NCBI GenBank assembly: GCA_030605835.1
Contig: JAUWHO010000023.1
Coordinates: forward strand, 62,001-126,000
From: Candidatus Zixiibacteriota bacterium
GTDB taxonomy: Bacteria; Zixibacteria; MSB-5A5; DG-27
Length of the DNA stretch: 64,000 bases
Direction of reading: 5' to 3'
The translations under genes and the position numbers were made by a program. Shown piece after piece: positions 12,009 through 16,888 of this stretch. The stretch's first letter is position 1. Each line of letters begins with the position of its first letter. The notes beneath the pieces were generated by a model. It saw only the letters and a list, made by a program, of their open reading frames with translations. It was not told the origin of the DNA and ran no database searches.

Positions 12009-13418
12009 ATGAGCCTGACTACTTTACTGATCCTGATTGGTGCGGTAGTTGTCGTCCTGGCGCTGATCGTTTTTGCGCTTGCGAAACAGTACCGCAAGGT
12101 GGGACCTAACGAAGTTCTGATTATCTCCGGAGGTAGAAGACGCACCATAACCCAGCCTGACGGCACCAGGAGGAAAGTAGGTTACCGGATGCACATCGGA
12201 GGGGGAACTTTCGTTCTGCCATTCATAGAGAGTGCCCAGGTCTTGCCACTGGAGGTTTTCACCTTGACGATCGAGGTTCCAGAGTGCTTGACTTCCCGGG
12301 GGATCGCGGTCAAGGCGGTGAGTCAGGGGCAGGTGAAAGTCGGTGGCAACGAGGACATGATTCGCCTGGCGGCCGAACAGTTCTTAAGTAAGGGGGCTGA
12401 AGGGATAAGGGAAATTGGCACTCAAATCTTAGAGGGATACATGCGGGGAGCACTGGGAAGCTCCACGATAGAGGAAGTCTACCAGAACCGGGATACCTTC
12501 TCGGAGACGGTGAGAGGAAACGCCGCCGCCGATTTCGCCCGCCTGGGGCTGGAAATCGTCTCCTTCTCCCTGAAAGATATCGGCGATGATCAGGGTTACA
12601 TCGAAGCCATGGGACGACCTCGCATTGCCCAAGTGAAAGCCGAAGCCGCCATCGCTCAGGCCGAATCGGACAAGGAGGCCACGGTCAAATCCGCTATCGC
12701 CAGGAAGGAGGGGGACGTCGTCAAATTCCAGGCAGAGACCGAAATCGCCCAGGCCAGCCGGGACTATGAGACCAGACGAGCCGAGTTCCAGGCTGTCATC
12801 AACCAGAAGAAGGCTAAATCGGATCTCGCTTACGAGTTAGAACGCCAGCGGATGAACCAGCAGATCCGGGAGGAAGAATACAAGGTCAGGATGATAGAGA
12901 AAGAACACAACATCGAGCTCGAAGAGAAGGAGATCTCAAGAAAAGAGAAAGAGCTGGAATCCACTGTCAAAAAGGCCGCCGATGCCAGGAAATACCAGGT
13001 TCAGGCGGAGGCGGAGGCGGAGCGTTTTCGCATCGAGGCTCTGGCCAGAGCCAACGCTGAGGCCACCAAGTTAGAAGGGACAGCGGAAGCCGAAGCGATG
13101 ATGAAGAAGGCGGAATCCTGGAAAGACTATAACGAAGCCGCCATCTATCAGATGGTGGTGGAGAAGTTACCGGAATTAGCTCGGGCCGTATCTGAGCCGC
13201 TCTCCAAGGTCGACAAGATCGTGCTGGTCAGCAGCGGCGACGGCTCTCTGGGAGCTTCCCGAATCACCGGGCAAGTGGCTGAAATCTTAGCGCAATTGCC
13301 GACCGTTATTGAGTCCTTAAGCGGGGTCGACATCAAGAAGCTTCTGGAGAATCTGCCAGCATTTAAGGGGAAGGGAAAAGCCCCAAGCCCTCCGAGCTCG
13401 GCCAAAGGGGGAAAATAA
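12009..13418 (+). CDS. Flotillin-like SPFH/band-7 membrane protein
   Basis: N-terminal TM; YRKVGPNEVLIISGG, LTIEVPECLTSRGIAVKAVSQGQVKV, long charged coiled coil, AEAERFRIEALARANAEATKLEGTAEAEAMMKKAE. Confidence 0.88.
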   Translation: MSLTTLLILIGAVVVVLALIVFALAKQYRKVGPNEVLIISGGRRRTITQPDGTRRKVGYRMHIGGGTFVLPFIESAQVLPLEVFTLTIEVPECLTSRGIAVKAVSQGQVKVGGNEDMIRLAAEQFLSKGAEGIREIGTQILEGYMRGALGSSTIEEVYQNRDTFSETVRGNAAADFARLGLEIVSFSLKDIGDDQGYIEAMGRPRIAQVKAEAAIAQAESDKEATVKSAIARKEGDVVKFQAETEIAQASRDYETRRAEFQAVINQKKAKSDLAYELERQRMNQQIREEEYKVRMIEKEHNIELEEKEISRKEKELESTVKKAADARKYQVQAEAEAERFRIEALARANAEATKLEGTAEAEAMMKKAESWKDYNEAAIYQMVVEKLPELARAVSEPLSKVDKIVLVSSGDGSLGASRITGQVAEILAQLPTVIESLSGVDIKKLLENLPAFKGKGKAPSPPSSAKGGK

Positions 13419-13450: not shown

Positions 13451-15793
13451 ATGTTAGCAGATAGAATTCAGCGGATCGGGTTTTCCCCCACCCTCAAAAT
13501 CACCGCCAAAGCCAAGGCCATGAAGGCAGAGGGGATTGACGTCATCGACTTCTCCGTCGGGGAGCCTGATTTTCCCACCCCGGAAAACGTCAAGGCCGCC
13601 GGCAAGGCCGCCATCGACGAGAATTTTACCAAATACACCGCCAACGACGGCATCCCGGAGCTGAAACGGGCGATTATCAAGAAGTTCAAAGAAGAGAACG
13701 GGCTGGAATACGACCCCTCCGAGATAATCGTCTCCAGCGGGGCGAAGAACTGCATGTACAATCTCTCGGTGGCACTCTTCAATAAAGATGAAGAGTGCAT
13801 CATCCCCGCTCCCTACTGGGTGTCATATCCTCACATGGTGAGCCTGGCAAAGGGCAAATCGGTCATCATCCAGACCAAGGAGGAGAACGGTTTCAGGCTC
13901 ACTCCCAAACAACTGGAAGCCGCTATATCGCCGAGCACAAAGGCCTTGATCATAAACAACCCCTGCAATCCCACCGGGGCTGCTTACTCCGAAGAGGAAT
14001 TGAAAGAGCTGGTCGAGATCGCTGCCGAGGAGGGTCTCGTTATCATAGCGGACGAGATTTACGAGAAGCTGGTATACGATGGTTTCCGATTCGTCAGCGT
14101 TGCCTCTCTGGGCAAGAAGATCAAGGAGAAGACCGTAATCATCAACGGGGTCTCCAAAGCTTATTCCATGACCGGCTGGAGACTTGGTTACGCCGCCGGC
14201 CCCAGAGAGCTGATCGCCGGGATGGACAAAGTGCAAAGCCACAACACCTCCAATGCCTGTTCGATTTCACAGAAGGCAGCCCTGGAGGCGCTGCTGGGTC
14301 CCCAGAGTGAAATCCCCCGCATGGTCTCCGAATTTCAGATGCGGCGCAACCTCATCCTCCAGAAGCTGCGGCTGATTCCGGGGACTTCCTGCATAGAACC
14401 CCGAGGCGCCTTCTATGTTTTCCCGAATTTCAGAAACTACTTCGATAAAGAGTATCAGGGGATGCAAATTCGCAATTCCTACGGTCTGGCATACTACCTT
14501 TTGAAGCAGGCCCGGGTGGCGGTCGTTCCCGGGGACGGCTTTGGAACCGAGGGCTATATCCGCTTCTCCTATGCCACCTCCACCACAAATATCGAAGAGG
14601 GGATGAACCGGGTGATTGAAGCGATGGCGAAGTTGGAGCCCACCCGGAAGGCGAAAGTGATCGCCCTCAATAACACCGTCACCTTGCGCAAGTCCTTTGT
14701 AGAGATAGAGCCGGCTACTAGTATGGAGAGGCGGGGTGCGCTGGTGGCCGAGGCTGAAGACCACCTCACCCACGACAACTACTTCGAGTGGAACGTCAAT
14801 GTTGCCGGAGTGATTCTCCAACTCCGCACGAATCTCTCCCACCTGTATGATTTCTGGATCGAGAACTGGTATCCCGCCCAACTGGAGGCGGACATAGAAC
14901 CGCATGGGATCATCTACGCCGTGGGCTGGATTCCAGGTCGGGAGCCTTACGCCTATTACAATTCTGAGTCTCGGACGGCGGTCTTTTTCAAGTCCGCTTT
15001 CTACGGTCAGCTCCGGAGCCTGGCTTTAGGGATGGTGGCCGACATGACGGAGCGTCTATTCGACCTCCATCCCATCCGCTGTTTTTGCGTCGATGTCGGA
15101 GGCATGGGGGCACTGCTGATTGCCCCTCCGGGGACTGGCAAATCGGCTCACGTGGCGGCTCTGATGCGGATGGAAGAGACCAAGCTGGTGTCAGACGACA
15201 TCGTCTTCGTTCGTTACTGTGGTAGGGAGGCTTTCGCCGACACCCCGGAGAGGAAGTTTTACATGCGCACCGATTTCGTCAAATACTATCCCGATCTAGC
15301 ACCGCTTTTCGACCGCAGCAAGTGCGAGAATGTAGTCACCAAGAAGGAGGAGTGCACCAATTCCAGGTGCATGCAGGAGGACAATTGCAGATTAGATCGC
15401 GGCGCTCCCTTCTGTTACGAGGCTTCGGATAAATCTCGGGCCATGCTCGATCCTTACTGGATTGGGGGACCCGACAAGCATAGCAAGAGGACTTCGGTCA
15501 AATGGGTTTTCATCCTGAAGCGTGACCCCGTCTCTCCCCCGATTGAGAAAGTTGACCCCGATGTTGCCATAAAACATCTGGAGGAGGGCCGAAGCCAGAC
15601 CGCAACCGGTGGCTACAAGAACGAGCCCTTTTTCAACCCCCATCTTTTGGTCAAAACCCAGGAGAGAATCGAGCTGCAGAAGCGCAACTTCGCTCGTCTT
15701 TTCAATATTGCCACTCCATACTTCGTGAACACCAGCGCCGAATCAACCGGAGAGCTGCAGGCGATGATAAGGGGCATCATTGCAGAAAAATAA
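13451..15793 (+). CDS. Fusion protein: class I/II aminotransferase (aa 1-~400) plus HprK/PEPCK-like P-loop domain (aa ~400-780)
   Basis: N-term SVGEPDFPTPENVKAAGKAAI, NNPCNPTGAAYS, NGVSKAYSMTGWRLGY; C-term LLIAPPGTGKSAHVAALMR (Walker A), ETKLVSDDIVFV, Cys-rich SKCENVVTKKEECTNSRCMQEDNCRLDRGAPFC. Confidence 0.8.
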   Translation: MLADRIQRIGFSPTLKITAKAKAMKAEGIDVIDFSVGEPDFPTPENVKAAGKAAIDENFTKYTANDGIPELKRAIIKKFKEENGLEYDPSEIIVSSGAKNCMYNLSVALFNKDEECIIPAPYWVSYPHMVSLAKGKSVIIQTKEENGFRLTPKQLEAAISPSTKALIINNPCNPTGAAYSEEELKELVEIAAEEGLVIIADEIYEKLVYDGFRFVSVASLGKKIKEKTVIINGVSKAYSMTGWRLGYAAGPRELIAGMDKVQSHNTSNACSISQKAALEALLGPQSEIPRMVSEFQMRRNLILQKLRLIPGTSCIEPRGAFYVFPNFRNYFDKEYQGMQIRNSYGLAYYLLKQARVAVVPGDGFGTEGYIRFSYATSTTNIEEGMNRVIEAMAKLEPTRKAKVIALNNTVTLRKSFVEIEPATSMERRGALVAEAEDHLTHDNYFEWNVNVAGVILQLRTNLSHLYDFWIENWYPAQLEADIEPHGIIYAVGWIPGREPYAYYNSESRTAVFFKSAFYGQLRSLALGMVADMTERLFDLHPIRCFCVDVGGMGALLIAPPGTGKSAHVAALMRMEETKLVSDDIVFVRYCGREAFADTPERKFYMRTDFVKYYPDLAPLFDRSKCENVVTKKEECTNSRCMQEDNCRLDRGAPFCYEASDKSRAMLDPYWIGGPDKHSKRTSVKWVFILKRDPVSPPIEKVDPDVAIKHLEEGRSQTATGGYKNEPFFNPHLLVKTQERIELQKRNFARLFNIATPYFVNTSAESTGELQAMIRGIIAEK

Positions 15794-16040: not shown

Positions 16041-16144
16041 TACTAAATATCAAATCCCACTCGGCTTGTCAAGTGTTTTTTGCGGTCTTCGGGCTCCGCA
16101 ACACAGCCGTGAAATGAATCTTCCTGTTGGCACGAGGAGAAAAC

Positions 16145-16888
16145 ATGAGCACTGAATGGCAGAATTACGCAGGTGAAATCGGGGAGCTTCTTGGGCTCAA
16201 AGGCAGCCCGGTTGCGATTACTTATTCGATGGAGCCACCATCGACCTCGGCGGGTGGGAAATATCGTGTCTGTGACGCCTTCCTGCATAGCAGAGACGGC
16301 AAAGTCATCGACCTTACAGCTTCGACATCGGCCTGCAGTGGTGGAACCTGGCATCTGGGTCTCGGGGAGCGTCCGAAAGGGGAGGCAGGCAGGGCCCTCA
16401 AAGATTTTCTTGTAAATGGAGAAAAGCTCTTCTGCTCCATTTCCGCATTCCACCGGGCGATGGTCCTGAGTACGCCACCGCCGTTAGGTCTTGCGGAACA
16501 TATCATTTTCTGTCCTTTGGAGAAGGCGGAGTTCAAGCCGGACATGGTGCTCTTTATCTGCAACGCGGAGCAGGCATGCCGTCTTGTTACCCTCGATGGT
16601 TACGACACCGGCATTCCCCCGAAGCTGGAGATGTCCGGGTCGACCTGTCATCAGGCAGTCGCTTATCCCATCGTCACCGGAGAGCTAAACGTCAGCCTCA
16701 TGGATTACACAAGTCGCCGAATTCGAGGTTACACAGCCGCGGATTTGATCGTCTCAGTCCCTTATCACCGCTTTCACGGAGTCATGCGAAGCATCCCGCA
16801 CTGCACCGCCGGGCGGGCGAAAATGGAGATCCCCGAATCATTCCGCCGTCTTGTTGGGGATGAGGCCTTACAGGATCTGGAAGACTAG
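16145..16888 (+). CDS. DUF169 family protein
   Basis: LGLKGSPVAITYS, CSGGTWHLGLGE, CNAEQACRLVTLDGY, SGSTCHQAVAYPIVTGELNVSLMDYTSRR; GAGGAG precedes ATG 16145. Confidence 0.75.
   Translation: MSTEWQNYAGEIGELLGLKGSPVAITYSMEPPSTSAGGKYRVCDAFLHSRDGKVIDLTASTSACSGGTWHLGLGERPKGEAGRALKDFLVNGEKLFCSISAFHRAMVLSTPPPLGLAEHIIFCPLEKAEFKPDMVLFICNAEQACRLVTLDGYDTGIPPKLEMSGSTCHQAVAYPIVTGELNVSLMDYTSRRIRGYTAADLIVSVPYHRFHGVMRSIPHCTAGRAKMEIPESFRRLVGDEALQDLED

Follow-up and report, generated by a model that had tools for sequence, protein, structure and literature searches.

The window, a stretch of 64,000 nucleotides from a Candidatus Zixiibacteriota genome, contains a gene (13451..15793, forward strand) in which an Iβ aspartate aminotransferase is fused to a shortened domain with the predicted fold of ATP-dependent PEPCK. 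In the interpretation that we prefer, with a probability of about one half, the aminotransferase is active and its C-terminal extension is a pseudo-PEPCK domain that docks to or regulates a separate partner PEPCK, with an SPFH protein as the scaffold. What shifts the interpretation of the fusion most is a conserved operon together with the second PEPCK. The gene context suggests a built-in aspartate-to-PEP relay whose fused partner domain is catalytically dead.

The fusion gene and its aminotransferase half

The reading frame runs from ATG to stop over 780 amino acids without an internal stop, and the in-frame fusion noticed in the preliminary description of this DNA is upheld by its homologues. 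In a set of 59 near-full-length, non-identical proteins (52-77% identity, from many MAG phyla) all members are fused, with a junction identical to that of the window ORF. When 84,980 genomes were searched with the C-terminal half, 43 loci came up, with record labels including Zixibacteria, KSB1, Aminicenantes, Acidobacteriota, Eisenbacteria, Caldithrix, Ignavibacteria/Bacteroidetes, TA06, Planctomycetota and others. Within the class to which the window belongs, the same half was matched in 42 of 133 genomes, 40 of them carrying the fusion family (some represented solely by contig-end pieces) and two a distant relative. Recurring in dozens of genomes, the fusion is far beyond chance; it is ancient and genuine. 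That a stop codon is missing, or that two contigs were wrongly joined, is practically out of the question: dozens of independent assemblies, single-contig genomes among them, have the identical junction, and we found no support for such an artefact. The preliminary description named, as a finding that would refute it, homologues that are always separate genes together with a missing stop here; the near-full-length homologues are fused instead.

A single unfused relative of the C-terminal half was found, present in two genomes (G007 and G008) as open frames of 581 and 600 amino acids; counted from its first ATG, the G008 protein has 574. The alignment of this relative with the C-terminal family covers both over their whole length (hhalign E 2.5e-34), and the K, H, GTGKST (P-loop), DD and NTR elements are retained. 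The G008 copy (L075:920-2644, minus strand), a PEPCK/HprK-like protein with an intact P-loop, adjoins apparent ABC transporter genes.

The N-terminal half (residues 1-395; 13451..14635, forward strand) is an Iβ aspartate aminotransferase, in line with its initial recognition as a complete class I enzyme. The Pfam Aminotran_1_2 model matches residues 30-387 (E 1.4e-77), and the SKAYSMTGWR signature occupies residues 235-244. Nearly all catalytic residues (Y62, K99, N173, D201, Y204, the PLP lysine K236, R244 and R371) are kept in 58-59 of the 59 homologues, which points to a catalytically active domain. A lysine of the K99 type is presumably a mark of acidic-substrate specificity in Iβ enzymes, as in Thermus AspAT. 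The nearest solved structures are the aspartate and prephenate aminotransferases of Rhizobium meliloti (6f35, E 2.9e-111). By offset, T14 and K99 correspond in the Arabidopsis prephenate aminotransferase to T84 and K169, the residues mutated in PDB 5wmi and 5wmk, and prephenate may therefore be an alternative substrate.

A degenerate PEPCK-fold domain

The AlphaFold2 model of the C-terminal 385 residues (residues 396-780; 14636..15790, forward strand), built from an alignment of 34 homologues, has a pLDDT of 90.1. When it was searched against the PDB with Foldseek, the best 50 matches listed were all PEPCKs, with the ATP type on top (E 8e-19); the ATP-type matches extend over the whole domain length, at 13-16% identity and with TM scores, relative to the query, of about 0.7-0.76. 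A profile comparison with the divergent partner PEPCK family described below is also significant, from the P-loop to the C-terminus (hhalign E 1.9e-6). Pfam scans gave no PF01293 match to the fused domain, and the C-terminal half has no match to a curated family above its cut-off. The predicted structure is that of a shortened PEPCK, which agrees with the original assignment to the HprK/PEPCK superfamily and narrows it. We rejected HPr kinase identity: the matches to PF07475 (18.3 bits against a cut-off of 33.3) and TIGR00679 (25.8 against 240) are weak and local, and the predicted fold is that of PEPCK. The model of the full-length fusion (pTM 0.52) gave no confident domain arrangement.

Both motifs pointed out previously are present in the window protein: LLIAPPGTGKS at residues 555-565, with the Walker A core APPGTGKS at 558-565 (15122..15145, forward strand), and KLVSDDIVFV at residues 578-587, in which D582-D583 (15194..15199, forward strand) correspond to D268-D269 of E. 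coli PEPCK. Of the 59 family sequences, 15 have an intact Walker A, 10 have the DD pair (D583 is found in 58, D582 in 10) and four, including the window, have both, so that at least one of the two is missing in 55. Elsewhere Walker A is replaced by forms such as GPKGLKRGS and GPKGTKKT. When sequence motifs were mapped to E. coli PEPCK, with the unfused relative as a bridge, the position of K212 was found to be arginine in 59/59 sequences. By sequence-motif mapping only, the position of K213 is mostly serine (S523 in the window), and that of H232, residue 543, is arginine in 46/59 and histidine in 10/59 (R543 in the window); on this mapping the Mn ligands K213 and H232 are absent from the window's fused domain. 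An R333-like arginine is present in the window protein as R663, and RK, EN, DP and Y518 are invariant in the fused domain.

Over 19 diverse loci the fused domain has a mean identity of 53%; the corresponding values are 65% (aminotransferase half), 64% (partner PEPCK) and 55% (SPFH protein). That the domain is well conserved despite the loss of Walker A and DD in most members fits a selected pseudoenzyme and not a freely decaying relic, and the residue pattern suggests that in most lineages PEPCK competence has been lost. Few copies are as little degenerate as that of the window, which may still bind or use ATP, because Walker A, DD and R663 are all kept. The ATP-dependent kinase or carboxykinase chemistry proposed at the outset finds no support as a family-wide function, the P-loop and metal-binding residues being mostly lost; it keeps some footing in the window, where Walker A and DD are in place.

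The same domain contains five cysteines, C625, C635, C640, C646 and C655 (15323..15415, forward strand), spaced C625-x9-C635-x4-C640-x5-C646-x8-C655. The cluster is thus real and its spacing is as previously described, except for the first gap, which is x9 and not x7. The cysteines are largely conserved (52, 41, 41, 57 and 56 of 59, respectively) and may form a metal or redox site. Sequences that have lost C635 have for the most part lost C640 as well: in 17 of them C635 is replaced by tryptophan and C640 by another residue, while C646 and C655 are mostly kept, as if a metal site had been simplified.

Gene neighborhood and the partner PEPCK

Immediately upstream of the fusion, at a distance of 32 nt, lies a gene for a flotillin-like SPFH protein (12009..13418, forward strand; Band_7 E 1e-26), which is of FloT type and scores below the NCBIfam cut-off. 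An SPFH gene adjoins the fusion in about 30 of the 43 loci, and also across the window's class, and in 23 of the 43 the fusion has next to it a gene for a divergent ATP-PEPCK, about 614 amino acids long. In a single-contig genome from the phylum of a Caldithrix MAG (L093) the order on one strand is SPFH, fusion, PEPCK, separated by 33 and 29 nt; in another locus (L095) the SPFH and fusion genes are 3 nt apart. The distance matrices of all four parts (the two halves of the fusion, the partner PEPCK and the SPFH protein) correlate with r 0.85-0.92. A promoter and terminator scan gave counts near chance. Downstream of the fusion, the window encodes a DUF169 (COG2043) protein (16127-16888), which is outside the conserved neighborhood of the other loci. 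A role in anti-phage defence was considered and rejected, as PADLOC returned no match for the fusion, the partner or the SPFH protein.

In the genome of the window the partner PEPCK is encoded on another contig, unlinked to the fusion (G000:C31:151475-153319). It is the sole PF01293 match in this genome (77.5 bits against a cut-off of 26.5, which its homologues also exceed), and no GTP-type PEPCK was found there. Equivalents of E. coli Y207, G209, K212, K213, H232, K254, D268, D269 and R333 are kept in 23/23 partner sequences, and an invariant arginine one column off R65 is likely its equivalent. The two homologues that were scanned remained below the curated cut-offs of NF006821 (about 295 versus 369 bits) and TIGR00224 (28-36 versus 590 bits). 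From its residues, the partner is apparently an active enzyme of a divergent ATP-PEPCK subfamily. In the alignment consensus, partner PEPCKs (for example, L077:4476-6323) end, after a variable linker, in a conserved RPRRPGxWRxR-like tail that looks like a candidate short binding motif.

The fusion and the partner co-occur with very few exceptions. Among the 133 genomes of the window's class, 37 have both, three the fusion only, none the partner only and 93 neither (Fisher p 9e-30, shared ancestry ignored); in the phylum of G162 the corresponding numbers are nine, none, one and 30 (Fisher p 4e-8, likewise ignoring shared ancestry). Summed over the two phyla, 46 genomes have both, three the fusion only, one the PEPCK only and 123 neither. 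Of 35 genomes outside the window's class that have the fusion, 29 also have the partner. Within the class, 15 genomes have a GTP-PEPCK, and the partner is absent from all of them (p 0.011, shared ancestry ignored). The three class genomes with the fusion and no partner are G116, G118 and G119; in G116 (L094) an SPFH gene lies upstream of the fusion, and because this is a single-contig genome the absence of the partner is probably real.

Interpretation and relation to known systems

In the reading that we favor, the aminotransferase would convert aspartate and 2-oxoglutarate to oxaloacetate, which the partner PEPCK would convert with ATP to PEP and CO2, or the flux would run in reverse. The fused PEPCK-fold domain would serve as a docking or regulatory subunit in physical contact with the divergent partner, acting by channelling or allostery, and the flotillin-like protein would be a membrane scaffold for the module. 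The fuller version, an SPFH-anchored complex in which the pseudo-PEPCK domain, tied to an oxaloacetate-making enzyme, both recruits and regulates a true PEPCK, is proposed more tentatively, at somewhat worse than even odds. Against this reading count the Walker A, DD and R663 kept by the window copy, the unlinked position of the partner in the window's genome and the three fusion genomes that do not have it.

Three other explanations were weighed. The PEPCK-like domain could be a signaling module, either a sensor of nucleotides or metabolites or a protein kinase resembling HPr kinase, which adjusts the activity of the aminotransferase or acts on the SPFH protein by phosphorylation; the partner would then not be a metabolic PEPCK. 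The weak HPr kinase matches near the P-loop, the adjoining SPFH gene and conserved cysteines that might sense redox state or metal are in its favor. We consider it unlikely, because those matches score far under the cut-offs over a stretch of about 60 residues, ATP-PEPCK heads the Foldseek list, and none of the mappable PEPCK catalytic residues is missing from the partner. A bifunctional enzyme, whose C-terminal domain in the window is itself active, as a PEPCK or a small-molecule kinase, and receives oxaloacetate directly from the aminotransferase, is somewhat less likely still: APPGTGKS, DD and R663 in the window copy and the motifs kept by the unfused relative speak for it, but Walker A and/or DD is missing in 55 of 59 family members, S523 and R543 occupy the K213-like and H232-like positions, and some 130-150 residues of a PEPCK are lacking.

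The least probable of the three is a structural relic that merely helps the aminotransferase to fold or oligomerise, with the neighborhood and co-occurrence signals reflecting one operon inherited or transferred as a whole. The decaying catalytic residues would fit, as would the correlated distance matrices, which are as expected for a unit moving together; however, the specific motifs ERK, SKCENV, DPYWIGG and EPHG are strongly conserved, and the partner is retained even where it is unlinked, as in the window's genome.

The PEP-pyruvate-oxaloacetate node is a main switch of carbon flow. If the docking and regulation reading is true, this node is under pseudoenzyme control in mostly uncultured bacterial phyla, which would use a dedicated protein module to govern how carbon is divided between amino acids and gluconeogenesis. 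A likely cultured carrier, the single-contig genome from the Caldithrix phylum, makes the module testable. The genome paper on Caldithrix abyssi assigns the conversion of oxaloacetate to PEP to an "ATP PEP carboxylase", Cabys_0267 (PMC5317091). Our literature search, confined to freely accessible published papers, found none on an aminotransferase-PEPCK fusion or a PEPCK pseudoenzyme, and no hit tied a bacterial flotillin to PEPCK and aspartate aminotransferase. In searchable papers, then, the fusion architecture, the pseudo-PEPCK domain and the module of three genes appear undescribed.

Neither half of the protein is a new fold. With Iβ aspartate and prephenate aminotransferases (PDB 6f35, 6f77, 5wmh, 1bjw) the N-terminal half shares the fold (TM about 0.9 of the target), the catalytic residues and 39-47% identity, whereas it scores below the NCBIfam equivalog cut-offs and is followed by the additional 385-residue domain. 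That domain has in common with ATP-PEPCK (PF01293; E. coli Pck, PDB 6com and 1oen) the whole-domain fold, the positions of the P-loop and of DD, the ENV motif and, as far as the NT motif, the C-terminal segments; it differs in being about 130-150 residues shorter, in its low identity (13-16%) without a Pfam PEPCK match, and in a P-loop and metal ligands that are degenerate in most members. Likeness to HPr kinase/phosphorylase (PF07475, TIGR00679) and HprK-related kinase A (TIGR04352) is confined to the P-loop and the subsequent acidic motif, about 60 residues, at scores far under the cut-offs, and the overall fold is nearer to PEPCK. Finally, in the SPFH/flotillin operons of the yuaFG type (PMC2636767) a flotillin-like SPFH protein is likewise accompanied by a conserved partner, there an NfeD-like protein; the survey of these operons names neither an aminotransferase nor a carboxykinase (PMC2636767), and in the operon described here the place of NfeD is taken by the aminotransferase-PEPCK fusion.
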